Part shown: positions 30,829 through 53,211 of the stretch, piece after piece
Numbering within the stretch: position 1 is the stretch's first letter
Layout of the letters: the number at the start of each line of letters is the position of its first letter
Source: a virus
Virus record (IMG/VR): IMGVR_UViG_3300046459_000436
Location: 1 to 64,000 of that record
Length of the DNA: 64,000 bases
Strand: one strand, 5' to 3'
Translations under genes and position numbers: made by a program
The notes under the pieces: generated by a model
The model's input: the letters and a program-made list of their open reading frames with translations, nothing else
Databases searched by the model: none
What the model was told of the DNA's origin: nothing

Positions 30829-33057
30829 TCAGGCAGCCTCCGGGGAGGCGAACTGGTCCCGCTTGAAGCCCTTCAGGCGCTTCCCGGCACCGAAGGTCAC
30901 GATGTTCGTTGTTGTGATCCCATCCCGGCGCAGACGCTCCCGCAGAGCATCCACATCAACGCCCAGCTCCTCGGCCAGCAACTCAGCCGTCAGCCCCTGC
31001 GTCTCCGGAACCCCCAGCCGATCGAACACCGCCACCGCATCCCGGCGCATCTCCGCCGCACGCGCCACCGCCTCATCGACACGACTACGCGACGCCGCCT
31101 GACCCGTCAGCGTCCCGGCCTTCACCCGCAGGTCGTAGCCGCGCTCCACGATCTCCCGGAACTCCGGCAGCTCGATCACATCGGACTTCTGCGTGATGTG
31201 ACCCGACTCCGCACCCTGGTCCAAGACCACGACACCCTTGTGGTGCTCCAGCAGCTTGTGCGGCGCCGCGCCGGCCTGCACGGCGTCGTCGCCGAGAACC
31301 ATCCGCGCGGAGGCGTCGCCCTTGACCCGAAAGCAGGCGCGCTTCACGCACACCCCGCGCAGCTTGGTCGGGACGCTGTCGGAGTCGGGGCGCTGGGTGA
31401 TGAACACGCCCATGCCGCCGACGAACCGGGCCACGCGCACGTACCGGGCGAGGGTCTCGACCAGCACGTCCTTGCCGTTGCGGTGCTTCGCGCCCTTGCC
31501 GTCCTCGTCCTCCTCGACGACCTTGACGCGGGTGTTCGCGGCGGCGTCCAGGAGTTCCTGGAGCTCGTCGACGATGAGGAGGGTGAGCCTCTTGTCGGGC
31601 TGCCGGGCAAGCGCCGGGGTGAGCTTGCCTTCGGGGCACTGCTGGGGGTCGGTCTCGGACAGGCTCTCCAGCTGCTCGCCGAGGTTCTGCATGCTGCCGA
31701 TCAGGTCGTCCAGCACCTCGTGGACTTCGACGAGGGTGTCCGGCTTGGAGCCGGAAATGTAGGCGTGGGCGATCTTCTTGAGGGCTGCCCAGTCCGGCCC
31801 GGACTTGCCGGTGATGACGATGATCCGCACGTAGGGGTCGAGGGCAGCTGCAGCAGCGATCAGCCGTGCCAGGTACGACTTGCCGTAGTCCTGCAGTCCG
31901 CCGATCAGCAGCGACGACCACAGCAGGTGCAGTGCCTGCCGGTCATGCCGGGCGTCCTGGCCGAGCGGTACGCCGTGCTGCCAGAAGTTCCACTCGGGGG
32001 CGTTGATCAGGGGGGACGGGGTCTTTCCGGCGCCGAACGGGTTGTCGGCGTCGGCGACCCAGATGGTGAATCGGCTCTCGTGCCCCTCGGCGCTGGTGTC
32101 CTTCTTCAGTTCGATGCGGGACGCCTTGACGCGCAGTGCGCCGGCGAGCGGTACGAGGCGGGCGATGGCCTGCTCTGCGGTGCGTCCGCCGGGCAGTTCG
32201 ATGGTGGCGGTCCAGCCGGGGCCGTCGGTGCGCAGGCCGAGGACGCTGGTCTCTTCGCGGTCGGCCTCCTCGATGATCTTCGCTTTGACGAGGGCGGTGA
32301 CCAGGTCGTTCGCACCCCGCACCTGCACGTCCTCGGACTTCGTGAGCACGACCGGACCCGCAGCACTCGCGGAGGCCGCGGCGGCGATGGTGGCGGGCGA
32401 CTCAGCGGCCAGCGTCACCGGAGACGACTCCTTGTCGTCGGCTTCGCGGTTCCGCCCCGCCCACCAGGCCGCACCGAACCCTCCGAGGAGGACGGCGAGG
32501 AGGCCGAGGATGGGGTGCTGCATCTTCCCCAGCAGCATCCAGCCGGCCACCACGCCCGCGGCGACCATGGCGCACCGACTGGCCTGCTGGGTGCGCTTGT
32601 GGCGCTTGATGTCCTTCTCGGTGACGTCGTCGTCGGCGTGCGGGAGGACGGGGCCGACGGTGACGCGCGTGGCGAACGCCTGGTTGAAGCGGTCCGCCTG
32701 CCCGGGGTGCCCCTGGTTGGCGGCGGTGGCGGCCTGCTTCTGCAGGTCCCGGACTTCGCTGTGGTGCTGGCGGATGGCCTTGCGGTTCTCGGCAGCCCGC
32801 TTGTGGATGACGTCCTTGGCGAGGTTCTCCTCGTCGACACCTTCAAGGAGCACCCAGGCGCGGCCCTGCTGGTAGAGGGTCTGGCAGCCGCGCTTGGTCT
32901 GCGCCCACACGGTCAGCTTGACGACCGGCGGCGGGGCATCGGCGGGCACCGGCTTGAGGAGTACGTGGGCGGGCGGGTTGGTGGGCATGGGCGGGACGTG
33001 ATTCTGGACCGGGATCTGGGGGCCCGCCGTCTCGGGCGGGGTGGCGTGCGTGGTCAT
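30829..33057 (-). CDS. traB-like: TraB-like FtsK/SpoIIIE conjugative DNA translocase
   Basis: A 742-residue membrane ATPase. Residues 1-160 are cytoplasmic and charged, two membrane segments lie at about 163-200, and an FtsK/SpoIIIE motor follows. Walker A is GLQDYGKS (387-394), Walker B LTLLIVDE (491-498), and the FtsK-type VFITQRPDSDSVP is at 551-563. The C-terminal 60 residues (LTAELLAEELGVDVDALRERL) form a winged-helix gamma-like domain for DNA recognition. Streptomyces TraB moves double-stranded DNA between mycelia as a hexamer. Length, order (Spd-like genes before it, iterons after it) and the wHTH support transfer rather than chromosome segregation. ATG start; the open frame upstream is not conserved-looking. 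Confidence 0.88.
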   Translation of the reverse strand: MTTHATPPETAGPQIPVQNHVPPMPTNPPAHVLLKPVPADAPPPVVKLTVWAQTKRGCQTLYQQGRAWVLLEGVDEENLAKDVIHKRAAENRKAIRQHHSEVRDLQKQAATAANQGHPGQADRFNQAFATRVTVGPVLPHADDDVTEKDIKRHKRTQQASRCAMVAAGVVAGWMLLGKMQHPILGLLAVLLGGFGAAWWAGRNREADDKESSPVTLAAESPATIAAAASASAAGPVVLTKSEDVQVRGANDLVTALVKAKIIEEADREETSVLGLRTDGPGWTATIELPGGRTAEQAIARLVPLAGALRVKASRIELKKDTSAEGHESRFTIWVADADNPFGAGKTPSPLINAPEWNFWQHGVPLGQDARHDRQALHLLWSSLLIGGLQDYGKSYLARLIAAAAALDPYVRIIVITGKSGPDWAALKKIAHAYISGSKPDTLVEVHEVLDDLIGSMQNLGEQLESLSETDPQQCPEGKLTPALARQPDKRLTLLIVDELQELLDAAANTRVKVVEEDEDGKGAKHRNGKDVLVETLARYVRVARFVGGMGVFITQRPDSDSVPTKLRGVCVKRACFRVKGDASARMVLGDDAVQAGAAPHKLLEHHKGVVVLDQGAESGHITQKSDVIELPEFREIVERGYDLRVKAGTLTGQAASRSRVDEAVARAAEMRRDAVAVFDRLGVPETQGLTAELLAEELGVDVDALRERLRRDGITTTNIVTFGAGKRLKGFKRDQFASPEAA

Positions 33058-33080
33058 GGCGGCGGGGCTCCAGGCTTGGG

Positions 33081-33620
33081 TTAGAAGTTGGTGAGGGTGT
33101 TGGCGGCAGCGGTGACGGCGGAGTTGGTGAGCTGCTTGATCAGCGGGCCGACGAACGTCCCGTCCAGGAGCACCCCGAGCGCGACGAGCGTGATCGCCCA
33201 GCTGGCGGCGACCTTCCGGCCCTTGATGCCGATGAACACGATCACGCCGATCAGCATCAGGCCGACGATGCCAACGCCGATCGTGCCGCCGCTGACGTTC
33301 GCCGGCGTGACGTTGTTGACGGCCGGGGTGACGTTCGTGTCGACCACGGGGGCGACGGACGGCTGGACGGCGGCCACGGTGACGACCGCAGCCGAGTGGT
33401 CGGCGGTGGCCGTGTAGTGGGTGGTGGGCAGGCCCCGGACGGTCATGGCGCGGGTGCCGTCGGCGAGGCGGACGCTGGTGTCGGTGGCGGCCTGGACGGA
33501 GGTCACGGTCGCGGTGTGCTGGGTGGCTGCGGCGACCGCCGGGGTGGCGATCCCGAGCGCCGCCAGAGCAGCACCCGACAGGGCCACGGAGCGGACGATA
33601 CGGATGGACTGGCGGGACAT
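33081..33620 (-). CDS. Exported/membrane protein of the transfer module (Spd-like)
   Basis: A 179-residue protein with an N-terminal signal (SIRIVRSVALSGAALAALG, then ATPAVAAAT), a Thr/Val-rich external part, and membrane segments near residues 113-133 (GVGIVGLMLIGVIVFIGIKG) and 140-160. It lies 24 bases before the TraB-like start. Proteins of this form accompany tra genes in Streptomyces and may help plasmid spread across septa. Assignment to Spd is by context. Confidence 0.65.
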   Translation of the reverse strand: MSRQSIRIVRSVALSGAALAALGIATPAVAAATQHTATVTSVQAATDTSVRLADGTRAMTVRGLPTTHYTATADHSAAVVTVAAVQPSVAPVVDTNVTPAVNNVTPANVSGGTIGVGIVGLMLIGVIVFIGIKGRKVAASWAITLVALGVLLDGTFVGPLIKQLTNSAVTAAANTLTNF

Positions 33621-33640
33621 GATGGGGACTCCTTCGAGGG

Positions 33641-35062
33641 TCAGTTCTGGTCGGTGTTTGAGGTGTTCTCGGTGGCGAGCCGACGACGTACATCGACGGC
33701 CTGCGCGCGCTTTGCGATGGGGTGGAACGGGGCGCTGTCGCCGCGTGTCCGGCGGGGCGGAATCGGCTTCGGTCGGGGACTGGTTCGGGGCTTCGCGGGA
33801 GAGGGGGATAGATGGGAGCTACGCTGCGCGTTCGTGACCTTGCTGGGTGTGTTCCCGGGGGCTTCTGAGAGGGCCGCTGCGACGCGTCGTGCGGCGACGT
33901 TGCGGGTGCGGATGACGTCGACGCTGTCGCCCGGGTCGGTGCCCTCGATGTCTCTGTAGGCGCGGATCCAAACGGCTTCGGTCACGGTCGTCTCGCCGAG
34001 CGCGGCAGCCAGCTTCAGTGCGTGCTCCCACACCTCCTGGAACTCCTTAGCGCGGTCAGTGGCGAGCTTGTTCGCGGCTTCCTCGGCAGCCTTGAGATCC
34101 GCCGCCTTCGCGTCGTCGGCAGCCTTCTTCTCTGCGGCCTTCCCGGCCGCCGCGCGGGCCTCGGCCTTCTCCTTCGCCTTGCGCTCCCGACGGGTGAGCG
34201 CGCCGTCACGCTTACGGATCCGGCCGTGCTCGTGGAGATCCCAGACGCCCGGGCCGGCGACGGACGCGAACGCGGTACCGATGGCGGTCGCCGGGTCGAA
34301 GGCGTTCAGGCCGTGCCACAGGTTGACCCCGGCGGCGATGAACGCCAGCAGCCACGCGATGAGCCGGTAGTGCCAGTGCGGACGGTGCCCGGCGACCGCG
34401 GCGGCAGCACCCTTGAGGACGACCGCCGCACCACCTTCGAGCATGAGCGGGGCGATCACGAGCCACGGGGCGACGGGGGTCCAGAACGCGGCGATCTGCA
34501 CAGGCAGGGCGACGACGGCGCACACGATGTAGAAGCCGAGGGCGTACCGGCGCCACCGGGCGTCGGCGACGGCGATCTCCTTCGCCGCCTTGTCGGCGGC
34601 TTCCTGCTGAATCCGCTGCTCCTCAGCGGCGGACTGCGCTTCGTCGTCGGCCTCCTTGCGGGAGGCGGCGGCCTGCCGGTCGATCTCCTCCTGCTCGGCC
34701 TGGAGTTCGGCGAGCTTCCGGGCGTGCGCGGCCTGCTTCTCCTCCATGGCCATGCGGTTGCGCTCGTTGGCGAGCCGCAGACGCTCCGCCTCAGCCTCGG
34801 CCTTGGCGCGGATCGCGTCGGCCTCGGCGAGGGCCTTCACGCGGGCGGCCTCGACGGCGGCGGCGGTCTGGGCCCGGATCGCCTCGGCCTCAGCCTCGGC
34901 GCGCGGGTCGACGATGGGGACGGGAGTGGCGGCAGGCTCAAGCTCGGGGGCGGTCTGCTCGTCCTGGATGACGCCGTTGATGATCGGGAACGACTGCCAG
35001 CCCTCATACACGGGCACGGCAAGCCGCTTGGTGCCGTTCACCTGGGCCGGGTTGGCGCTCAC
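33641..35062 (-). CDS. DUF2637-type plasmid spread protein (SpdB-like)
   Basis: A 473-residue protein. Residues 55-165 are a long Ala/Glu/Arg coiled coil (AEADAIRAKAEAEAERLRLA). About four membrane helices follow between 173 and 275 (YALGFYIVCAVVALPVQIAA; LVIAPLMLEGGAAVVLKG; LIAWLLAFIAAGVNLWHG), the DUF2637 pattern. The C-terminus is a second charged coiled coil and a basic tail. DUF2637 proteins are hallmarks of Streptomyces plasmids and integrative conjugative elements, where they interact with TraB in intramycelial spreading. GTG start after AAGGAGA. Confidence 0.8.
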   Translation of the reverse strand: MSANPAQVNGTKRLAVPVYEGWQSFPIINGVIQDEQTAPELEPAATPVPIVDPRAEAEAEAIRAQTAAAVEAARVKALAEADAIRAKAEAEAERLRLANERNRMAMEEKQAAHARKLAELQAEQEEIDRQAAASRKEADDEAQSAAEEQRIQQEAADKAAKEIAVADARWRRYALGFYIVCAVVALPVQIAAFWTPVAPWLVIAPLMLEGGAAVVLKGAAAAVAGHRPHWHYRLIAWLLAFIAAGVNLWHGLNAFDPATAIGTAFASVAGPGVWDLHEHGRIRKRDGALTRRERKAKEKAEARAAAGKAAEKKAADDAKAADLKAAEEAANKLATDRAKEFQEVWEHALKLAAALGETTVTEAVWIRAYRDIEGTDPGDSVDVIRTRNVAARRVAAALSEAPGNTPSKVTNAQRSSHLSPSPAKPRTSPRPKPIPPRRTRGDSAPFHPIAKRAQAVDVRRRLATENTSNTDQN

Positions 35063-37800: not shown

Positions 37801-37902
37801 GCTTCTGAGTCCATGAATGTCCGCCTCAGAGTCGCTGCGCGTAATCATCAAGGGCTTAAGGTTGAGGTCAGCGCCGCAACGACCTTCGAGAGGGGCCCGC
37901 CA

Positions 37903-38430
37903 GTGACTGCGAAGTGGACCAGTACGTCTACGCCATACCTGCTACCACGCAGGCCCGGACAGGTAGACGCCTGGACGCAGGAGGCCGGAGCGCGCGGGGG
38001 TCAGCGCCTCATCGAGGTGGCCATCAAGGTGCCGCCGGCCGAGGTTGCGGAATCCCTCGGTCTCGCCGTTGGAGAGAGTGCGGTAGCGCGTCGGCGGGTG
38101 ATGACCCTCGACGGGCAGCCCGTTGAACTCACCGACTCGTACTACCCGCAGAGCGTTGCGGTGGGGACGCAACTCGCTGAGCACGCCAAGATCCGGGGTG
38201 GCGCTCCAACACTCCTCCGCAGCCTCGGCTACGAGGTGCACCGAGTAGCCGAAGAGGTAGAGGCGCGGGCGACAACGCCTGACGAGGCCGAAGCTCTCGG
38301 CCTTGAACCGGGAACTCCCGTACTCACGCTGCTGCGAGTGACCTACTCCTGCAGTGAACAACCCATCGAGGCATCACTGATGGTCATGAAGGGCCCTCAC
38401 CGCCTCCGGTACGAAATGGAGATCGGCTGA
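37903..38430 (+). CDS. UTRA-domain protein lacking the GntR DNA-binding domain
   Basis: A 175-residue protein aligned by eye with the C-terminal two-thirds of the GntR protein that follows: VPPAEVAESLGLAVGESAVA, VELTDSYYPQSVAVGTQLAE, IRGGAPTLLRSLGYE, EQPIEASLMVM. The winged-helix start is absent; residues 1-55 are unrelated. UTRA domains bind small effectors and dimerise. It ends one base before the next GTG, so the two are co-translated and may form mixed dimers. Start GTG with GAGAGGGG upstream; an ATG at 37813 is possible. Confidence 0.75.
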   Translation: MTAKWTSTSTPYLLPRRPGQVDAWTQEAGARGGQRLIEVAIKVPPAEVAESLGLAVGESAVARRRVMTLDGQPVELTDSYYPQSVAVGTQLAEHAKIRGGAPTLLRSLGYEVHRVAEEVEARATTPDEAEALGLEPGTPVLTLLRVTYSCSEQPIEASLMVMKGPHRLRYEMEIG

Positions 38431-38431
38431 C

Positions 38432-39193
38432 GTGGTCAAGCACAAGGACAAGCGCGCCGTGGCTGAGCGCATCGCCGCGAACATCAGATTCCTGATCATG
38501 TCCGGCGAGTGGGAGCCCGGAAAGAAGCTCCCGACCAACAGCGAACTCATGGCGGACTACGGCACATCCAACGTCACCGTGCAGCGCGCCCTCGGAATCC
38601 TCAAGGACGAACTCCTCCTCGAAGGCCGGGCAGGCAGCGGCGTCTACGTCCGCGCGCGGGCACCTCAGACCATCATCCCAGCGTCCTACATGGCACCCTC
38701 GGACCCCGGACATCCATACCGGTGGGTCACCGAAGCCAGCAACCGCGACCAGCACGGAAGTAACAGGATCCTCCAGGTCGCCGAGGTCGAACCGCCCAAG
38801 CGCGTCGCAAAGATCCTGGGCCTGGAGCCCGGCGACACGGCGGTTCTCCGGACGCGGGTCGGCCTCCTGGACGACGAGCCGGCGGAGATGACGTACTCGT
38901 ACTACCCGGCCAACCTTGCGCGGGGTACGCGCCTCGCTGACCGTCGGAAGATCCCTGGCGGATCGCCGACGCTGCTCGCAGAGATGGGCTACCCGCCCCG
39001 CGAGCAGGAGGACGAGGTGGCCGCCCGGATGGCGACGACCGAGGAGTACGAGCTGCTGGAGATCCCCGGCGATACGCCAGTGATCGAGGTCTTCCGGGTG
39101 GTCTACAGCGACGGCCGGCGCCCGATCGAGGTGACCGTGATGGTGAAGCCCGGCCACCTGTACAAGATGGGCTATCACCTGCCGGTTTCCTGA
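38432..39193 (+). CDS. GntR/UTRA (HutC-type) transcriptional regulator, KorSA-like
   Basis: A 253-residue regulator. The winged helix is at 1-75 (VAERIAANIRFLIMSGEWEP; SELMADYGTSNVTVQRAL; EGRAGSGVYVR) and the UTRA effector domain at 110-253 (EPAEMTYSYYPANLARGTRL). KorSA of pSAM2 and similar GntR regulators repress transfer and replication genes of Streptomyces elements. Adjacent to a divergent transfer operon it is the obvious candidate for that role. GTG start one base after the UTRA-only gene. Confidence 0.88.
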   Translation: MVKHKDKRAVAERIAANIRFLIMSGEWEPGKKLPTNSELMADYGTSNVTVQRALGILKDELLLEGRAGSGVYVRARAPQTIIPASYMAPSDPGHPYRWVTEASNRDQHGSNRILQVAEVEPPKRVAKILGLEPGDTAVLRTRVGLLDDEPAEMTYSYYPANLARGTRLADRRKIPGGSPTLLAEMGYPPREQEDEVAARMATTEEYELLEIPGDTPVIEVFRVVYSDGRRPIEVTVMVKPGHLYKMGYHLPVS

Positions 39194-39206
39194 CTCGGCA
39201 AGCCTC

Positions 39207-39232
39207 AGCCCCCGTCCGATGCGGCGGGGGCT
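39207..39232 (+). terminator. Terminator after the GntR gene
   Basis: AGCCCCCG pairs with CGGGGGCT around a 10-base loop, 13 bases past the GntR stop. Confidence 0.7.
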
Positions 39233-39255
39233 CTGTGATGCATGGATGCGAAAGC

Positions 39256-39284
39256 TTGATACAAAAGCGAATACGCCCTACTGT
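39256..39284 (+). promoter_or_regulatory. Strong consensus-like promoter
   Basis: TTGATA, 17 bases, TACTGT: the best sigma-70-type promoter seen in the window. It reads into a leader of about 120 bases before the next start codon. It probably drives the two small genes that follow in the lysogen. Confidence 0.65.
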
Positions 39285-39319
39285 CGTTCCCGTGAAGGTG
39301 GCGCACGCCACAACACAAA

Positions 39320-39345
39320 GGCCGGACGGTTGCCACCGTCCGGCC
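39320..39345 (+). promoter_or_regulatory. Leader hairpin, possible attenuator
   Basis: GGCCGGACGG and CCGTCCGGCC pair perfectly around TTGCCA, about 30 bases after the predicted transcription start. No T run follows. It may terminate early, stabilise the mRNA, or bind a regulator. Confidence 0.5.
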
Positions 39346-39413
39346 TGGGATCAAAGCGGGGTGCAACCCGCCGATCAGCTGAGGCCCCATCCGCCTGGAA
39401 GGAACTCTCGCCT

Positions 39414-39746
39414 GTGAGCGTACAACAGAGCACATCCGTTCGACCCATCGAGACCCCTGAGGCATCCGTCACGCCGCCCGCCCTCACCCTGCTGGCGAAG
39501 CTGTGGCAGTCGACGCCGCTCCCCCTGCTCCTGGAGGCCGCGAACGCCCGCGTCCTCGACTCGGAAGAGATCGACGACGAATGGTTCATGGGCGCTGCGG
39601 TACAGCGCAAGGACGGCCGAATGTTCTTCGTGATGCCGCCCAACCGACCCGAGGTAGAGCGCGACACGATCGTTCGGGACCTGATGGCGCGGATGCTCCG
39701 CGTGCCACTGCCCGGGATGACACCCACCGGACGAGTAGCCGCATGA
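39414..39746 (+). CDS. Hypothetical protein (110 aa)
   Basis: A 110-residue protein: LTLLAKLWQSTPLPLLLEAA, DSEEIDDEWFMGAAVQRKDG, then FFVMPPNRPEVERDTIVRDL and MLRVPLPG. GTG start after GGAAGGA. It has a dedicated promoter and leader hairpin and is translationally coupled to the next gene. I do not recognise it; its promoter suggests expression in the lysogen. Confidence 0.65.
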   Translation: MSVQQSTSVRPIETPEASVTPPALTLLAKLWQSTPLPLLLEAANARVLDSEEIDDEWFMGAAVQRKDGRMFFVMPPNRPEVERDTIVRDLMARMLRVPLPGMTPTGRVAA

Positions 39747-40078
39747 CCGACGGCGGCATCCCCGACTACTACATGGAGCGCGCGCGCTTCCTCGCCACCG
39801 TCAAGGACATCGGCGAGGGGACCGAGGTGGCCGACGCGGCGCTCGACCTGATGATCAGGCTGGAGAGTTCCATCCAGTCACCCTGGGCCGTCACGGACCC
39901 GTTCGCCGCCGAGCGCTACCTCGTGGCACGCGGAGCCGACCCGGACGTCGCATCCGAGGAGGGTGTCGTCTTCGAGATCCAGATGCGCGCCCTCGTCGGC
40001 ATCGGCCTCGGACGCCCCGTCCAGTCGTTCGACGAGATCGCTGACTGGATCGCCGAACACGTCGACACCACCCCGTAG
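39743..40078 (+). CDS. Hypothetical protein coupled to the preceding gene (111 aa)
   Basis: A 111-residue acidic protein: YYMERARFLATVKDIGEGTE, VADAALDLMIRLESS, DVASEEGVVFEIQMRALVGI, DEIADWIAEHV. The ATG overlaps the previous TGA (ATGA). Helical. Function unknown; the pair could be a maintenance or immunity unit. Confidence 0.65.
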   Translation: MTDGGIPDYYMERARFLATVKDIGEGTEVADAALDLMIRLESSIQSPWAVTDPFAAERYLVARGADPDVASEEGVVFEIQMRALVGIGLGRPVQSFDEIADWIAEHVDTTP

Positions 40079-40130
40079 TTGTCAGTCCCTGCCCGTATCG
40101 TCCACCGTGCCGCACCCGAGAGGAGGCCCC

Positions 40131-41648
40131 GTGCAGACCGAGATCCTGAAGGCGTTCAAGTTCGCGCTCGACCCGACCAGCGCTCAGATCGAGGCCCTGT
40201 CGAGGCATGCGGGTGCGGCGCGGTGGGCGTTCAACCACGCACTCGCGGCGAAAGTCGCGGCGCACGAGCAATGGCGTAGCGAGGTTGCCGCGCTGGTCGA
40301 GGCTGGCACTCCCGAGACGGAAGCGCGCAAGAAAGTGCGCGTGCCGATCCCGATGAAGCCGTCGATCCAGAAGGCCTTGAACCAAGTCAAGGGCGACTCG
40401 CGCACGGGAATTGACGGTGTGTGCCCCTGGTGGCATGAGGTCAACACCTACGCCTTCCAGTCCGCATTCATCAACGCGGACCGCGCGTGGAAAAACTGGC
40501 TCGACTCCCTGTCCGGAAAGCGCGCTGGCCATCGAGTCGGCTATCCCCGATTCAAGAAGAAAGGGCGGACCCAGGACTCATTCCGTCTGCACCACGACGT
40601 AGACAAGCCAAGAATCCGGCTTGCTGGTTACCGTCGGCTGCGCCTGCCAACAATCGGCGAGATTCGGCTGCATGACTCGGCGAAGCGTCTGTCACGATTG
40701 ATCGACCGTGACAATGCGGTGGTGCAGTCGGTGACGGTGTCTCGTGGCGGTCATCGCTGGTACGCCTCCGTCCTGTGCAAGGTCGTCGTGGATGTCCCAG
40801 CGAAGCCGACTCGGCGACAGGCCGGGCGGGGCACCGTGGGAGTAGACCTCGGGGTGAAGTACCTCGCAGCACTGTCGCAACCGCTCACGGAAGGCAACGA
40901 GTCAACCCAACTAGTCCAGAATCCCCGTCATCTACGCCGCACGGAGAAGCGCCTGACGAAGGCGCAGCGCTCTCTATCTCGAACAGTCAAGGGTTCTGCG
41001 CGGCGAGAGAAGGCCAAGCGCCGCGTCGGCCGGCTGCACCACGAGGTGGCGGCACGCCGCGCAAGCGCCCTACATCAGGTGACCAAGCGACTCGCCACTG
41101 AATTCGCCGTGGTGGCCCTTGAGGACTTGAACGTCGCCGGGATGACGCGATCCTCTCGGGGCACCGTGGCGGCGCCGGGGAAACGGGTGCGACAGAAGGC
41201 CGGGCTGAACCGAAGCGTTTCGGATGCAGCTCTAGGTGAGTTCCGGCGGCAGGTCACCTACAAGACTTTCTGGTACGGGTCGAAGCTGGCGGTCTTGGAT
41301 CGCTGGTTCCCGTCGAGTAAGACCTGTTCGATGTGTGGGTGGCGAAACCCAAACCTCACGCTCAAGAACAGGGTGTTCCACTGCGACAACTGCGAGACGG
41401 CCATGGACCGGGACCTGAATGCAGCCCGGAACATCGCGCGCCATGCGGTGCCGATTGATCAACACGTCGCCTGCGATACGCGGGAGACGAAAAACGCCCG
41501 TGGAGCCCCTACAAGACCGACCATCCCTCGGGATGGCTGGCAAGGAGCGTCGAAGCGGGAAGACGCGGCTCGCAAGGCCGCGCCACCCCAGCGGAGTAAT
41601 CCGCTGGCACTCCCACCCGTGGGCCACGGACAGATCACGCTGTTCTAA
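40131..41648 (+). CDS. tnpB: TnpB RNA-guided nuclease of an IS605/IS607-type element
   Basis: A 505-residue TnpB with all catalytic parts: RuvC Asp239 (VGVDLGVKYLA), Glu331 (VVALEDLNVAG) and Asp428 (MDRDLNAARN), plus the zinc finger Cys399/402/418/421 (TCSMCGWRN, FHCDNC). The N-terminal helical and WED-like part is intact. No TnpA gene lies next to it, so it is a solitary tnpB that could only move with a transposase in trans, or that has been kept for another job. Start GTG after GAGAGGAGG. The last 100 bases contain hairpins expected of the guide RNA scaffold. Confidence 0.92.
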   Translation: MQTEILKAFKFALDPTSAQIEALSRHAGAARWAFNHALAAKVAAHEQWRSEVAALVEAGTPETEARKKVRVPIPMKPSIQKALNQVKGDSRTGIDGVCPWWHEVNTYAFQSAFINADRAWKNWLDSLSGKRAGHRVGYPRFKKKGRTQDSFRLHHDVDKPRIRLAGYRRLRLPTIGEIRLHDSAKRLSRLIDRDNAVVQSVTVSRGGHRWYASVLCKVVVDVPAKPTRRQAGRGTVGVDLGVKYLAALSQPLTEGNESTQLVQNPRHLRRTEKRLTKAQRSLSRTVKGSARREKAKRRVGRLHHEVAARRASALHQVTKRLATEFAVVALEDLNVAGMTRSSRGTVAAPGKRVRQKAGLNRSVSDAALGEFRRQVTYKTFWYGSKLAVLDRWFPSSKTCSMCGWRNPNLTLKNRVFHCDNCETAMDRDLNAARNIARHAVPIDQHVACDTRETKNARGAPTRPTIPRDGWQGASKREDAARKAAPPQRSNPLALPPVGHGQITLF

Positions 41649-41690
41649 CAGCATGATCGGCGAGTGCCCGACCTGGGTGTACAGGGAGCG
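41540..41690 (+). ncRNA. Candidate omega RNA region of TnpB
   Basis: TnpB guide RNAs overlap the 3' end of the gene and run into the element's right end. Here the gene's end holds an 8-bp hairpin, CCAGCGGA, GTAA, TCCGCTGG (41588-41607), and a second short one, CCCAC/GTGGG (41612-41623). The right end and guide boundary could not be fixed by eye. Confidence 0.3.
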
Positions 41691-41818
41691 ATCATCCGAG
41701 CATTGCGAGATGTGCCGCCGCCACTTGGACCTAACCCGGGCACGCACGGAGTGATCGGAGACCTCTGTGTCTCGTCGATGCACCTGGTGCTGTCCAGTCC
41801 AAGGGTGCAGGGAGCGAT
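41675..41818. repeat. Three degenerate repeats spaced about 64 bp
   Basis: The 335 bases between TnpB and the next gene hold no convincing gene. Three related blocks lie at 41675 (GGGTGTACAGGGAGCGAT), 41738 (a more diverged copy) and 41803 (GGGTGCAGGGAGCGAT). Steps are 63 and 65 bp. Their role is unknown. Confidence 0.5.
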
Positions 41819-41982
41819 TGAACTTCTCGCAGCCGCTGAGCCAAGAGGTGCCACCGTGTCCCCTGCGCCCCGTGTTGCCGCCCCGTCGGTGACGCCCGCC
41901 ACACTCTCCGCCCGCCCCGTTGCCACCCCCGCAACGCCCGGCCACCCTGGCGTCCTCACCGTGGCGACAAGGGGGCCGGGTC

Positions 41983-42306
41983 ATGATCTGTCCGTCAGGC
42001 AAATGCGGATCGTCGAACGTCGAGTCCCTGCCGCACTACTGGCAGAGTCTCCCCTCGGACAGCCCTCTGAAAGCGCAGTACGCGGAGCCGCCGGTCGTCG
42101 CGGCCCAGTACCTGTGGGCGGTCGGGGGCATCGTTCTGGGTGTGATGACGCTGGCTCGGAGCGTGGTGGCCGGCCTGCTGTTCGTGGCCCTGGGCGTGGC
42201 GTGGTGCGTCGCCACGCATCGGCAGGCGGAGGCTGCGGATTCTGCGCGCGCGGAGTGGGGCAGCTCGCTGATATGCCTGGCGTGCACCGGGCAGTTCCTG
42301 CCCTGA
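41983..42306 (+). CDS. Small membrane protein with terminal Cys pairs
   Basis: A 107-residue protein: CPSGKCG at the start, two membrane helices (YLWAVGGIVLGVMTLARSVV; AGLLFVALGVAWCVATH) and CLACTGQFLP at the end. The Cys pairs from both ends could form one zinc site at the membrane face. ATG after AAGGGGG. No family recognised. A terminator follows the stop. Confidence 0.6.
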   Translation: MICPSGKCGSSNVESLPHYWQSLPSDSPLKAQYAEPPVVAAQYLWAVGGIVLGVMTLARSVVAGLLFVALGVAWCVATHRQAEAADSARAEWGSSLICLACTGQFLP

Positions 42307-42328
42307 GCTACCCCCGAGCGCAGCAAAG

Positions 42329-42360
42329 AGCCCCCGGGCCCGTTGTGGGCGCCGGGGGCT
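42329..42360 (+). terminator. Terminator
   Basis: AGCCCCCGG pairs with CCGGGGGCT, with an inner GCCC/GGGC stem. It separates the membrane protein gene from the toxin-antitoxin locus. Confidence 0.7.
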
Positions 42361-42385
42361 TCGTCGGTTCTGCTGACCGTGGGGT

Positions 42386-42456
42386 TCGTAAGTAAATCGC
42401 GCACACTTTCGATTTGCTTACGATGCCGTCCCGGGTCTCCCTACTCACAGGTAGGG
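42386..42456. promoter_or_regulatory. Two inverted repeats upstream of the toxin-antitoxin genes
   Basis: TCGTAAGTAAATCG (42386-42399) and CGATTTGCTTACGA (42410-42423) are complementary at 13 of 14 positions. CCCTAC (42439-42444) and GTAGGG (42451-42456) form a second dyad. A TANNNT box, TAGTGT, follows at about 42461. These are likely operator sites for the antitoxin or its complex. The rest of the 260-base gap shows nothing else. Confidence 0.5.
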
Positions 42457-42566
42457 CCGTTAGTGTGGACTCGATTGGATGGTTCTCCGCACACCATGGG
42501 TCCGCCGAGTCGCATGTGGGGGCGACTCGACTACGGTGGAAGCGAGGAACGCAGAGGGGACCGATC

Positions 42567-43019
42567 ATGGCCAACGTCAACGACGTAGCCGCATACATTC
42601 TGGCCAAAGCCGCACCGATGACCGCCATGAAGCTGCAGAAGCTCTGCTACTTCGCCTACGGCTATCACCTGGCATGGGAAGACCGGCAGCTCTTCCCCGA
42701 ACGGTTCCAGGCCTGGGCGAACGGCCCCGTGTCCCCCACCCTGTACGACAGGCACCGCGGGCGGTTCCAGCTGAACCGCGGCGACATCGCCGGCGACCCG
42801 TCCGTACTGGACGAGGGCGAGTGCGAGACGGTCGACCTGGTCCTTGACGCGATGGGCGGCTTCTCCGCGCACGAGCTGTCGGGCATGACTCATCGGGCGG
42901 GCCCGTGGCTGGCCGCCCGCGAGAGGGCCGGTGCCGCCGATCTGGAGCGGTCCACCGAGGAACTCCGCGACGAGGACATAGAAGATTTCTTTGGGGCGCT
43001 GGCGGGCAGCGACGACTGA
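42567..43019 (+). CDS. Panacea (DUF4065/SocA-like) antitoxin
   Basis: A 150-residue protein with the Panacea domain pattern: VNDVAAYILAKAAPMTAMKL, LCYFAYGYHLAWEDRQLFPE, FQAWANGPVSPTLYDRHRG, then VLDAMGGFSAHELSGMTHR. This domain neutralises many unrelated toxins encoded next to it. The next gene overlaps its stop (TGATG), the usual bicistronic layout. ATG after AGAGGGG. Confidence 0.88.
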   Translation: MANVNDVAAYILAKAAPMTAMKLQKLCYFAYGYHLAWEDRQLFPERFQAWANGPVSPTLYDRHRGRFQLNRGDIAGDPSVLDEGECETVDLVLDAMGGFSAHELSGMTHRAGPWLAARERAGAADLERSTEELRDEDIEDFFGALAGSDD

Positions 43020-43489
43020 TGGTCAAGGGGGGAAAGCCGAAGAAGCGGCTCGCTGTGCCCCCGATGGGGCCTGCGAGCGGCAAGCAGATCGGCAACGCCA
43101 AGGGCCTGCTCCCCGGAGCGGGCAACTCGTCCGAGCGGTTGTGCTGGCGCTTCACCTATGTCGATCACGAGAGCCGCTGGGACTTCTGCGCCATCACGCC
43201 AGAGCTGATGTGCGAGATCTTGGGCAAGATGGCCGACTGCGAGTCCATGACCATCGACGAGCTGCGGAAGACCTGGCGGCTGTTCAAGGATTACGAGTTG
43301 CCGGGCGGCCTGTGCAAGGAAGCTCTCGACCGTTTGACGGCGACGGGCCGCGATGACCAGACGAAGATCCAGCGTCTGGAGTTCAAGGGCACGCAGCGGC
43401 TGTACGGCTTCCTCGAAGACAACGTCTTTCACGTCATCTGGTGGGACCCGGACCACGAGGTCTACCCGTCCACGCTGAAGCACACCTGA
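43019..43489 (+). CDS. Putative toxin partner of the Panacea antitoxin
   Basis: A 156-residue protein. The N-terminus is basic (MVKGGKPKKRLAVPPMGPAS), the middle has WRFTYVDHESRWDFCAITPE, and the C-terminus LEFKGTQRLYGFLEDNVFHV and IWWDPDHEVYP. The last part resembles short beta-rich domains found in toxin partners, but I do not recognise the family or a catalytic site. Assignment as toxin rests on one-base overlap with the antitoxin gene. Confidence 0.65.
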   Translation: MVKGGKPKKRLAVPPMGPASGKQIGNAKGLLPGAGNSSERLCWRFTYVDHESRWDFCAITPELMCEILGKMADCESMTIDELRKTWRLFKDYELPGGLCKEALDRLTATGRDDQTKIQRLEFKGTQRLYGFLEDNVFHVIWWDPDHEVYPSTLKHT

Positions 43490-43501
43490 CACCGACGGTT
43501 G

Positions 43502-43705
43502 TCACCCGAACAGCCCGTCCTGCGGCACGTCGAACCGCCCGACGCCCGGCCCGATCCGGATGCCGAGCTTCTGCCGACACCGCGGCCCGAGCCGGTACAA
43601 ACGCGAGATACGGTCGTGCAACTCCTCATCGCACTCGTCGCACGGAACGACGACGCGCCCCGTCGCCAGCTCGTGGGAGCGGGCGAGGAGCGCGTCAGGA
43701 GTCAT
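43502..43705 (-). CDS. DUF6011-like zinc-ribbon protein
   Basis: A 67-residue protein with VVPCDECDEELHDRISRLYR and LGPRCRQKLG, a three-Cys plus GP.CR pattern seen in DUF6011 proteins of Streptomyces plasmids and phages. ATG start. Converges with the toxin gene; only 12 bases lie between. Confidence 0.6.
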   Translation of the reverse strand: MTPDALLARSHELATGRVVVPCDECDEELHDRISRLYRLGPRCRQKLGIRIGPGVGRFDVPQDGLFG

Positions 43706-43720: not shown

Positions 43721-45070
43721 CTACGCGGCGCTCTCGCGGCCGGGGAGGCGCATCTCCAGCGTATGGCCGCCGTCGACGTCCAGGAGCTTCGCCAGCGGGG
43801 CCGTGACGGCCTCGTGGCGCGGGATGGCCAGGGTCTGCGCCTGCTGCGGGATGCGCCCGGTAGCGGCCTGCCGCGTCCCCCACCCGTTGCGCCGCAGCGT
43901 CGCCAGCGCGTAGAGCCGGAGCGGGATGAGGAGTGTCAGGTTCATCAGCGCGTACAGCGGCGCCGCGGCGAACGTGAGCAGCCGGTCGGTACGCGGAACC
44001 TGGCCGGCTGAGCGGAGGTAGTGCAGCGACCGGAACCACGCGGCGGCCGAGACGTACACGGCGTACCAGGCGAACACCGTCCAGGCGTGCGGGTTGGACG
44101 CGAATACGGCGAGGGCGACCAGCAGGGCCGAGGTGAACGCGATCCACGTGGCGAGCTCGACGAGGTTGAGCCACCAGTAGGCGCGGCCCATCGAACTGAC
44201 CTTCAAGGCCAGGAGGACGCCCTCGCGGATGAAGCTCTTCGTCCACCTGCATTGTTGAACGAGATACTTCCGAAGATTCTCCGGCACGTCGGTCCAGGCG
44301 ACCGCGGTGGGCACGATCAGCGACTGGCCCTCCAGCAGGCAGTAGTACGTGAGCCTGCGGTCGTCGCCGAAGGTGCACTCCTTGCCGAGGAAGCGCTGCT
44401 GCAGGAAGTCATCGAGGTACTTCCGGACCGTCGAGCCGCGATAAAGGGCGAGGCTTCCGCAGGCGCACAGGACGGAGCCGAGGCGGGAGTAGGCCACCCG
44501 CTCGCCGAGGAACGCATTCTGATACCGCATGTCGATCAGCCGGGTGAGCAGGTTCTTCGAGCGATTCGCAGCCAGGACCAGCCCGGTAACCGCGTGGACG
44601 CGGCGGCGGGCGAACGGCCGGGCGGCCTCCTCGACGGCGTGCTCGTCCAGGACGGTGTCGGAGTCGATGCACAGGTAGATGTCCGCGTCCTGGCGGGCGT
44701 TGAACCCGGCCGCCAACCCGTGGCGTTTGCCTCTGTTGACGGGGAAGCGGATGAAGTCCAGGCGGATCCCGGCGGCGGCGAACGCCGGGCGCAGCAGGTC
44801 GATGACGCCGGCGGCCGAGCGGTCCTTCGAGCAGTCGTCGATGACGGTGAGACTGTCGGGCCGGCGGGTCTGGTCGAGGATCGATTCCAGGCAGCGGCGG
44901 AGGGCGGCAGGCGATTCGTTGAAGGTCGTGACAACTCCGTGAATGACATGGCCGGTCGGCCCTGCCGGCTGCTGTGCGGTGGGTCTGCGGCGCCGCTTCA
45001 TGGACGCGAGGAGCTTGATGGCGAGCAGGCTGCCCACGGCTATGCCGTACCAGCCCAGGTGGTTGTGCAC
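43721..45070 (-). CDS. Processive family 2 glycosyltransferase, hyaluronan/chitin-synthase-like
   Basis: A 449-residue membrane enzyme. One N-terminal helix (GWYGIAVGSLLAIKLLASMK), a cytoplasmic GT-A domain and three to four C-terminal helices (about 300-400). Catalytic motifs are complete: IDDCSKD (Asp78-79), DSDT (Asp136/138), TFGDDRRL (Asp236-237) and QQCRW (QxxRW, 272-276). That set defines processive synthases of hyaluronan, chitin or cellulose type using UDP-sugars. In a phage it would coat the host with a polysaccharide or change receptors. It is flanked by small genes with no other sugar enzymes. GTG start after GGGGGA; an upstream frame extension of 22 codons is Pro-rich. Confidence 0.85.
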   Translation of the reverse strand: MHNHLGWYGIAVGSLLAIKLLASMKRRRRPTAQQPAGPTGHVIHGVVTTFNESPAALRRCLESILDQTRRPDSLTVIDDCSKDRSAAGVIDLLRPAFAAAGIRLDFIRFPVNRGKRHGLAAGFNARQDADIYLCIDSDTVLDEHAVEEAARPFARRRVHAVTGLVLAANRSKNLLTRLIDMRYQNAFLGERVAYSRLGSVLCACGSLALYRGSTVRKYLDDFLQQRFLGKECTFGDDRRLTYYCLLEGQSLIVPTAVAWTDVPENLRKYLVQQCRWTKSFIREGVLLALKVSSMGRAYWWLNLVELATWIAFTSALLVALAVFASNPHAWTVFAWYAVYVSAAAWFRSLHYLRSAGQVPRTDRLLTFAAAPLYALMNLTLLIPLRLYALATLRRNGWGTRQAATGRIPQQAQTLAIPRHEAVTAPLAKLLDVDGGHTLEMRLPGRESAA

Positions 45071-45107
45071 AGGGGTCCCCCGTGTAGGTGGTTCGAGTGG
45101 TGGTTGG

Positions 45108-45320
45108 TCAGGTGCGGCGGGTCTTGGCCACGACAACGTCTACGCACGCCGCGGGCAGGTCCACGACGCGATCAAAGTCCCCGAGCCCCACGCCGTGTTG
45201 GGCTGCAGCGGCAAGCAGATCCCGGAGCAGCTCCAATGCAGCGGCGCGGGTCTCCGGGCTGATCGCCGGCCCGTGGCGGTGGACGGCGGCGATGGCCTCG
45301 GCCGGGGTGCGGGCGGTCAC
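45108..45320 (-). CDS. Small helical protein (70 aa)
   Basis: A 70-residue protein: TPAEAIAAVHRHGPAISPET, RAAALELLRDLLAAAAQHGV, then DFDRVVDLPAACVDVVV. GTG forming a GTGA overlap with the gene before it. Function unknown. Confidence 0.55.
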   Translation of the reverse strand: MTARTPAEAIAAVHRHGPAISPETRAAALELLRDLLAAAAQHGVGLGDFDRVVDLPAACVDVVVAKTRRT

Positions 45321-51483: not shown

Positions 51484-53211
51484 TCATGCGGCGGCGTCGA
51501 GGGCGCTGTGGATGACGGCTCGCAGCCGGGACCCGATCCATGCCCCGACCTGTGGGGATACGGCGTTGCCGAACCCGTCCACCTGGTTCCGGGCGGACCC
51601 CCAGACGGTGAAGCTGCCGCGGTAGTCGTTGAAGTCGACGTCGAAGCCGCAGCCGCGGCCGATCTCGTGCGCCGCCATCATTCGGTAGAAGCAGTCCTCA
51701 AGCGGAAGCTCGGCGAGCGACGCCTGCCACTGGGCCATGAGCAGCGCAGTCGTGTCATGGGAGGTGAGGGTGCCGAGCGGGTCCGTAACCGGGTGAGGCG
51801 CGGTCTCGTTCCCGGTGGGGCCGTTCTGCTTGTACCAGCCGGCGGCCGTCAGCACCGCCGGGATCTGCTCCGAGGTGAAGGTGGGCATCGCCTCGCTGTA
51901 CAGCGTGGGCAGCGTGTTCTTCCGGTACGGGATGACACCGGAGGACAGCAGGGCGAAGGTCTCCGACCCGACCTGGGTGGGCAGCGGCTCCCCGGCGCCA
52001 CGGGGGGCGCCCTGGTAGTTGTCCACCGCGAGGGCCATCGCCGGTGCGGCCAGTCCGTCAGCGGCGGCCTGTGCCCACAGCGGCTGGACGACCGGTCCGG
52101 TCGACAGGATCGCGGTCTCCTGCTGGCTGGTCTGCGTTGCCATCGGCTGCAGCAGGAGCCGCTCCGAGCCGTGCACGCCCTTCGCCGGCATGAGGATCGC
52201 CGGGAACTCGGCGAAGCGCTGGCGGCACCGTTCCGCGCGCGTCATCGAGGAGCGCGCGAGCGGTCCGACGAAGCCGTCCTTGAACGTCTTGGCCGGCTTG
52301 TCGCCGATGCGCGTGCCGAGATTGGTGAGGTCGAGCGCGGTCAGCGACGGCGTCATCGGCGGGACGACGGGGCGGCGGCAGGACGGGCACCGGTACTCGT
52401 ACTGCTTGCCGTACATCACCGTGCCGGTCGCCGGGATGCCGGTCTTCCACGTCCACACCGCCTCGACGTCCTTGTCGCAGTGCCCGCAGCGCGACACCGG
52501 CCGGTGCTCCAGGTCGGGTTCGGGCAGGGACCTGTCCCAGAACACCCAGTAGCCGCGGTCCCGGGACTGCGGGACCCCGAAGAACTGCGAGTTCAAGAAC
52601 CGGACCTTGTGGTCGTAGTTCAGGAGGTCGAACTGCTTGAGCCACCACCGATAGGCGGAGCCGTCACCGACCTTCGGGCGGTTCGGCAGCGCGGGCCCCC
52701 ACGAGATGAGCTGGGTGGTGCACTCGACCAGGATCAGCCGCGGGCGGTGCTGCTGCGCGTAGTGCAGCACGCAATTCGCAGTCGCCCGGTCCCGCTCCGA
52801 CTTCGTGACCCGCGCATCGAAGTCAGGATCGTCCAGCTCGAACAGCGTCATGCCCTGCTCGTAGGCCTTGACCGTGTTGGCGAGCGAGTGGTTGACGCAA
52901 CTCACTCCAGCGACCAAGAGGTCAGCCGGGGGAAGGTCGCGGGCGGAGTGGTAGTCCGCCGCTTCGGGGTCGACCAGGTCGGCGATCCAGTGTTCGGCGT
53001 TCGGGTGGTTCGCCTCGTGGACCTCGACCTTGTAGGCGTTGTGGTTCGCGGCCATGATCGTGGTGAACCCGGCGATCTCGATGCCCTTGGTGAGGCCCCC
53101 GAAGCCGCTGAAGAGGTCGACCGCGATGAGGTCGTCGTGGCGGAACCGACGCCGTCTGGTGGCCGGCCGGTGTGTGGCGGTGCGGATCTTCTGCGTGGAT
53201 GCGCGGGTCAT
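51484..53211 (-). CDS. Divergent DNA C5-cytosine methyltransferase
   Basis: A 575-residue protein. Motif I is VDLFSGFGGL (31-40). The catalytic motif IV reads GVSCVNHS (102-109): the Cys is kept but the usual Pro before it is Ser. Motif VI reads LVEC in place of ENV (161-164), so its Glu is kept. Motif VIII-like QSRDRGYWVFWDR is present. A four-Cys ribbon (CGHCDK ... YRCPSC) sits in the middle, probably for target recognition. Motif X is close to the end (VDGFGNAVSPQVG). Actinophage relatives with SPxCxxHS-type motifs are thought to be active. Likely role: protection from host restriction. Confidence 0.85.
   Translation of the reverse strand: MTRASTQKIRTATHRPATRRRRFRHDDLIAVDLFSGFGGLTKGIEIAGFTTIMAANHNAYKVEVHEANHPNAEHWIADLVDPEAADYHSARDLPPADLLVAGVSCVNHSLANTVKAYEQGMTLFELDDPDFDARVTKSERDRATANCVLHYAQQHRPRLILVECTTQLISWGPALPNRPKVGDGSAYRWWLKQFDLLNYDHKVRFLNSQFFGVPQSRDRGYWVFWDRSLPEPDLEHRPVSRCGHCDKDVEAVWTWKTGIPATGTVMYGKQYEYRCPSCRRPVVPPMTPSLTALDLTNLGTRIGDKPAKTFKDGFVGPLARSSMTRAERCRQRFAEFPAILMPAKGVHGSERLLLQPMATQTSQQETAILSTGPVVQPLWAQAAADGLAAPAMALAVDNYQGAPRGAGEPLPTQVGSETFALLSSGVIPYRKNTLPTLYSEAMPTFTSEQIPAVLTAAGWYKQNGPTGNETAPHPVTDPLGTLTSHDTTALLMAQWQASLAELPLEDCFYRMMAAHEIGRGCGFDVDFNDYRGSFTVWGSARNQVDGFGNAVSPQVGAWIGSRLRAVIHSALDAAA

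Follow-up and report, generated by a model that had tools for sequence, protein, structure and literature searches.

The window, meaning the whole 64,000-nucleotide stretch analysed here (positions 1–64000 of an 80,673-base virus record), carries on its minus strand a gene for a GT2 polysaccharide synthase of the hyaluronan synthase (HAS) type, flanked by two small genes. The features of the locus are as follows.

45108–45320, minus strand: upstream cassette gene, 70 aa, no assigned family, conserved with the synthase in L003–L005 (71–89% identity)
45076–45081, minus strand: ribosome-binding site GGGGGA of the synthase gene, read from the sequence; the GGGGGACCCCTGTG stretch is identical in L003–L005
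43721–45070, minus strand: HAS-type GT2 polysaccharide synthase gene, 449 aa, GTG start at 45070 (translation, Pfam/NCBIfam and PDB matches, AlphaFold (AF2) fold, dN/dS)
45002–45067, minus strand: N-terminal transmembrane helix, residues 2–23 (AF2/DSSP), aligning with the second N-terminal helix of relatives such as L015
44285–44953, minus strand: cytoplasmic GT-A catalytic domain, residues 40–262 (Pfam PF13641 and AF2 model)
44657–44665, minus strand: DSD (DxD) metal/UDP motif, residues 136–138, invariant in a 46-sequence alignment
44357–44368, minus strand: GDDR motif, residues 235–238 (GEDR in NodC, SDDS in Kromp-type synthases)
44243–44257, minus strand: QxxRW motif (QQCRW), residues 272–276, followed by TKSFIRE, as in HAS
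44096–44182, minus strand: hydrophobic helix 297–325, predicted transmembrane (AF2 model)
44030–44086, minus strand: hydrophobic helix 329–347, predicted transmembrane (AF2 model)
43871–43882, minus strand: WGTR gating-loop motif, residues 397–400 (function of the HAS motif from PMC11750622)
43745–43807, minus strand: C-terminal tail with a PLxKLLD...TLE motif, residues 422–442 (APLAKLLDVDGGHTLEMRL region), common to phage and prophage synthases of other subclades
43502–43705, minus strand: downstream cassette gene, 67 aa, DUF6011-like (Pfam PF19474, E=7e-5, weak and below the cut-off), 52–92% identity in L003–L005

The coordinates 43721–45070 given in the preliminary description are correct, and the gene sits on the minus strand; a plus-strand reading of this interval was rejected, the frame being interrupted. 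A TTG start at 45136 was also rejected, because the stretch upstream of the GTG overlaps the 70-aa gene; the GTG at 45070 is preferred on account of the conserved ribosome-binding site before it. GC at the three codon positions (0.67/0.50/0.90) is typical of a high-GC coding gene.

The protein contains a single GT2 (GT-A) module, seen both with Pfam (best GT2 match E = 3e-20; PF13641 at residues 46–277) and in the AlphaFold model, which was built from 46 sequences (mean pLDDT 84, pTM 0.83). Its motifs are DD (78–79), GKR (114–116), DSD (136–138), GDDR (235–238), QxxRW (272–276) and WGTR (397–400). All of the GT2 synthase motifs named earlier are thus present, QxxRW included, and WGTR is an addition to that list. 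The DxD/GDDR/QxxRW/WGTR set is taken from work on the Chlorella virus enzyme CvHAS, which requires the WGTR gating loop (PMC11750622).

In a PDB sequence search, only hyaluronan synthases were matched at E < 0.01 (CvHAS 119 bits, Xenopus HAS1 105 bits). The model superimposes on CvHAS over 376 residues (Z 34.7, rmsd 2.6 Å, 26% identity), and Foldseek ranks 1–13 are HAS throughout, among the matches listed, which leave room for other families. HAS structures score Z 30.9–34.7 (Xenopus HAS1 33.2), the best chitin synthase 27.9 and cellulose synthase 25.0; an archaeal mannosyltransferase at Z 31.2 falls within the HAS range, so that the fold alone is suggestive, short of decisive. Sequence and predicted fold together bear out the proposal of a processive-type GT2 polysaccharide synthase, and PBCV-1 HAS, cited as a precedent, proved to be the best structural match of the model. 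The enzyme can be placed more narrowly than as a generic GT2 protein: it is HAS-type by sequence and predicted fold.

Genes for GtrB-type serotype conversion are common phage morons, and the GtrB-like phrog_841 is the sole PHROG match of the synthase. That match is marginal rather than clear (E=0.008, residues 46–139 only, 94 residues). QxxRW, the gating loop and the channel helices are marks of processive synthases, and the HAS fold match extends over 376 residues at 2.6 Å; a non-processive enzyme that, like GtrB, transfers sugars one at a time to a lipid carrier or wall polymer is very unlikely.

NodC, the chito-oligosaccharide synthase, shares the fold class and ~33–35% identity. The best NCBIfam model for the phage synthase is NodC (TIGR04242, 213 bits), far under its cut-off of 550 bits, and a control, the streptococcal hasA of a hasABC locus (L073), scores 229 bits, so that the NodC-model score does not tell the two families apart. 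At 13 positions the four reference HAS have one residue in common and the five NodC another; here the phage synthase has the HAS residue in 11, the NodC residue in 0 and neither in 2; for Kromp gp79, from a Streptomyces phage, the counts are six for HAS and one for NodC (n=13). GDDR and WGTR in the phage protein stand against GEDR and WLSR in NodC, which also has RWARS. NodC as the family was rejected on the cut-off, the separating columns and the hasABC control. The picture is less clear-cut at the 105 columns separating streptococcal HAS from NodC (33 HAS, 25 NodC, 47 neither), which would place the protein on the HAS side, yet not as a streptococcal-type HAS. The PgaC/IcaA poly-GlcNAc synthase model (TIGR03937) gave 58 bits, under its cut-off of 422.3 bits.

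These results bear on the possibility that the enzyme, though processive and of this fold, is NodC-like and builds a polymer of GlcNAc alone (chitin or chito-oligosaccharide) on the host surface. UDP-GlcNAc is available at all times, the phage has no UDP-glucose dehydrogenase, NodC is the top-scoring model, and some chloroviruses have exchanged HAS for chitin synthase (PMC5408694). With a streptococcal hasA scoring equally on that model, no NodC-like residue at the 13 separating columns, HAS-type GDDR and WGTR motifs, and sugar dehydrogenases adjoining the cellular relatives (see below), such a product seems unlikely.

Compared with class I HAS of the streptococcal type (HasA; class I-R), the phage enzyme has the same GT2 domain, GDDR, QxxRW with xKSFxRE, and core end at WGTR, and its cellular relatives are likewise paired with UDP-glucose dehydrogenase. 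It differs in its ~33–34% identity, in one N-terminal helix rather than two, in a long tail past WGTR, and in the absence of hasB/hasC from the phage. CvHAS of PBCV-1 (class I-NR) is also virus-borne, and its UDP-sugar contact residues are identical: K177, R341, W342 and R348, reported to contact UDP-GlcA or the priming loop (PMC12987647), correspond to K115, R275, W276 and R282, all conserved. Since these residues are mostly common to NodC, they are no proof of UDP-GlcA use. CvHAS differs in its algal host, in extra helices before and after the core, and in that PBCV-1 also encodes a UDP-glucose dehydrogenase (PMC5408694); it is no close relative of the phage synthase, which makes a separate capture likely.

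Fewer membrane helices are predicted by the AF2 model for the phage synthase than are found in CvHAS or streptococcal HAS. The latter has a pair of hydrophobic stretches at its N-terminus and likewise ends after WGTR. Helix 370–390 of the model is the counterpart of the HAS interface helix that precedes the gating loop (naming after PMC11750622). The tail past WGTR (397–400) is modelled with low confidence and, by comparison with HAS structures, is probably cytoplasmic. With a single N-terminal helix and none of the post-gating-loop helices of CvHAS in the model, a secretion channel would need an oligomer. In streptococcal HAS the channel has been proposed to lie at the dimer interface (PMC10939387), and if that proposal holds, the phage enzyme would need a dimer-interface channel or more.

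The gene had been described as virus-borne, and this is confirmed by the phage genes of the record (tape measure, major head, portal, terminase, RecT, integrase and endolysin) and by an exact 127-base direct repeat at both ends (1–127 and 80547–80673). The identical ends indicate that the phage genome is most likely complete and circularly closed, which places the synthase gene outside host flanking DNA. Two integrase-like genes (phrog_1), at record positions 69204–70562 (+) and 75545–76588 (+), are consistent with a temperate lifestyle. A phrog_2 search of whole records overlooked the window's own terminase, which a protein scan detects, so negatives from that search carry little weight. Streptomyces is a plausible host, suggested by the GC content of the record (~68%), the closest cellular relatives of the synthase, a plasmid-like FtsK gene, and an endolysin whose counterpart in Streptomyces phage Kromp is 41% identical across 120 residues. 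At the DNA level, isolate phages gave 47-base matches only.

Several other genes of the window may be mentioned here. The FtsK/SpoIIIE-like protein (954 aa; 30829–33693, minus strand) is kin to Streptomyces plasmid genes, and together with GntR/UTRA regulators at 37813–39193 it is reminiscent of Streptomyces plasmid transfer systems. These regulators belong to a plus-strand island (37813–43489) in an otherwise mostly minus-strand genome. One of the two UTRA regulators there has a GntR domain; the island also codes for a TnpB-like OrfB_IS605 protein and a SocA/Panacea-like protein. A 575-aa C5 cytosine methyltransferase (51484–53211, minus strand) has a long insertion separating its conserved parts.

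Synthase copies of 95–97% identity occur on three IMG/VR contigs, and a search of IMG/VR with A2 as query returned the same three only. In all four phage contigs the synthase is flanked by the same 70-aa and 67-aa genes; similarity extends from the first codon of the upstream gene to shortly past the downstream gene. The synthase thus travels as a three-gene cassette, which is a new observation. Within codons 250–300, L004 is 77–79% identical, as against mostly 84–96% over the remaining gene, which suggests intragenic recombination in that copy.

The accessory position of the synthase in a variable region would suit inactive, host-derived cargo in decay, and a recent cargo pseudogene had been named as the finding that would count against a functional synthase. 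Four intact copies in differing flanking DNA, with all catalytic motifs retained and pairwise dN/dS of 0.10–0.21, make decay highly improbable. The gene is under purifying selection.

The closest cellular relatives, found in one pass over 84,980 species genomes, are in Streptomyces, Streptacidiphilus and Actinomadura (top matches 62–66% identity). A maximum-likelihood tree of 66 proteins groups the four phage copies with 100/100 support, inside a clade of 11, likewise supported at 100/100, that they share with Streptomyces and Actinomadura genes. The phylogeny proposed earlier, against NodC/HasA and Streptomyces CslA-like proteins, is answered in part: the synthase groups with actinomycete hasA-like genes, apart from NodC, in a tree that excluded CslA. 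The best reading of the sequence relationships is that a hasA-type gene was captured by the phage from an actinomycete. The nearest of these genes (L051, L054–L056; 64–66% identity, same 100/100 clade) differ from it in lying outside any recognised phage, in being mostly dehydrogenase-adjacent, and in lacking the PLxKLLD...TLE tail. Similar genes lie downstream of two of the cellular synthases (L051:7599-9101 and L054:7283-8998); a CBM3 cellulose-binding domain in the L051 product is a hint that these cellular systems deal with an extracellular polysaccharide.

A nucleotide-sugar dehydrogenase gene adjoins the synthase in L054, L055 and L056, within the clade of 11, and in L059 and L060, just outside it; in all five the best substrate-specific model is UDP-glucose 6-dehydrogenase. 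At L067 and L068 the adjoining enzyme is of the UDP-ManNAc/GlcNAc type, and at some other nearby relatives no dehydrogenase was detected beside the synthase. Among 295 sampled Streptomyces genomes, 16 had a synthase match at E < 1e-60, of which at least two (G009, G011) were genomes already selected for their match; a dehydrogenase-like gene lay close by in 14 of the 16 loci, mostly with ~25% identity to HasB. No UDP-sugar dehydrogenase was found in the phage or in 17 related virus records (18 searched; positive controls detected). Most chloroviruses with HAS carry their own dehydrogenase, unlike this phage (PMC5408694). Homologues of UDP-glucose dehydrogenase occur in every one of 61 Streptomyces sampled, and a host of this kind could therefore provide UDP-GlcA.

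We know of no characterised member of this actinomycete clade, and several actinomycete and Bacillota relatives may be HAS-fold synthases of another uronic-acid heteropolymer. That the phage enzyme is one of these would agree with the UDP-ManNAc/GlcNAc-type dehydrogenases of L067 and L068 and with the many Streptomyces relatives (42–43% identity) whose dehydrogenases are only ~25% identical to HasB. It agrees less well with the closest chromosomal relatives that have a typed neighbour (L054–L056), which score as UDP-glucose 6-dehydrogenase, and with the conserved HAS collar and priming-loop residues. It is a minority possibility, though one to be taken seriously.

The reading that we favour, and consider probable though far from assured, is that the phage acquired a hasA-like gene from an actinomycete, now carried in a small cassette, whose product, a GT2 enzyme of the class I hyaluronan synthase type, would turn host UDP-sugars into hyaluronan, or a polymer closely related to it, at the cell surface. 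The data show an intact and conserved gene in a phage genome, HAS-type sequence and fold, dehydrogenase-linked cellular relatives and a phage-associated tail; activity, product, expression in infection or lysogeny, and a role at the surface are inferred. By analogy with HAS, the cytoplasmic GT-A domain would bind UDP-sugars via DSD, GKR and GDDR, QxxRW and the WGTR gating loop would hold acceptor and UDP, and the growing chain would exit through a membrane channel. Most likely the host would provide the substrates, UDP-GlcNAc and a UDP-uronic acid (UDP-GlcA), and the product would be hyaluronan or a close uronic-acid/GlcNAc polymer. Such a polymer would probably alter the host surface to the benefit of the phage, for example by hindering the adsorption of other phages; phage exclusion and mating contact, both suggested earlier, are possible but speculative roles of the putative coat. 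For mating contact, the one relevant feature of the phage is its plasmid-related FtsK/SpoIIIE-like gene, which is no proof of anything concerning the synthase. In PBCV-1 infection, hyaluronan-covered cells bind other viruses less, although the authors doubt that this is the reason for the coat (PMC5408694).

Hyaluronan synthesis is known from vertebrates, a few bacterial pathogens and an algal virus (PMC10939387). A literature search, with most subscription journals outside its coverage, turned up neither a phage-borne HAS-type enzyme nor a paper about synthases of Streptomyces lysogens. As kinds, both HAS-type enzymes and HAS carried by viruses were known before; what is new is a bacteriophage-borne member, borne on a cassette and with a phage-associated tail. 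If the enzyme is active, this would be a phage gene coating a soil bacterium in polysaccharide, and a sign that Streptomyces has an uncharacterised hasA-hasB-like pathway. Streptomyces phages would then offer a tractable system for asking why a virus makes its host secrete hyaluronan, a question still standing for chloroviruses (PMC5408694).

The C-terminal tail is also found on Kromp gp79 and on L017–L022, L026, L034, L037, L038, L049, L029 and L052. It is present in 12 of 26 virus-borne rows of the tree and in none of 39 cellular or plasmid rows, these rows being related and non-randomly drawn, so that the p-value serves as a rough guide. Its carriers are on different branches, with at least four changes of presence on the tree. 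Among Streptomyces phages and prophages, one tail is thus attached to differing synthase bodies, a new observation; as a common element of otherwise different synthases it is a concrete, testable handle.

One such body is that of L052, in a prophage of S. blattellae; judged by eye from their sequences, genes ~20 kb downstream presumably encode portal, capsid and prohead protease. Between L052 and L017, similarity of the DNA begins ~214 bases before the stop codon, near the WGTR codons, and continues into the downstream gene. It appears from this comparison that a HAS-type body replaced a Kromp-type body in situ, with the tail and the downstream gene retained. Retention of the tail could be by hitch-hiking with the gene end. 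The residues K, L, D, T and L of the tail are kept in the diverged window copy, which argues for a function. In S. echinoruber (L151:8670-11063), a GT2 protein of ~797 aa has a LAGLIDADG-containing, intein-like insert and the same C-terminal tail, and its downstream gene is the same as in L017/L018-type elements. It may be suggested, tentatively and with more doubt than confidence, that Streptomyces temperate phages keep a polysaccharide-synthase slot, in which HAS-, Kromp-, L029/SGAir-type and intein-bearing GT2 bodies would be exchanged upstream of a conserved cytoplasmic tail (PLxKLLDPxTExTL) acting as a phage-specific docking or control signal, and that the resulting coats (hyaluronan in the window) would remodel the host surface.

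Kromp gp79 and its prophage relatives resemble the window enzyme in being phage-borne GT2 synthases with the same C-terminal tail motif. They differ in sequence (~35% identity), forming a separate subclade with SDDS and MRWMRG motifs, and in being preceded by an LAxTG microprotein, which the window lacks. In Kromp this is gp78 (L006:29385-29552), directly upstream of the GT2 gene; in general it has ~40–60 aa, an LAxTG/LPxTG sortase-type motif, one hydrophobic helix and a basic end. It adjoins nearly all Kromp-type synthases, on phages, plasmids and chromosomes, and is absent beside the window gene. The short protein lies upstream of the GT2 gene in L017–L024, L026, L027, L029, L030, L034, L037, L038, L041 and L049, and also in L058, L061, L070–L072, L083, L008, L009 and L151. 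A class E sortase is beside it on a Pseudonocardia plasmid, and the protein could anchor a peptide or polymer to the wall. A frame-broken remnant of a Kromp-type synthase, with a remnant of the tail, is present in a Streptomyces genome (G058:C1, ~84000; L133).
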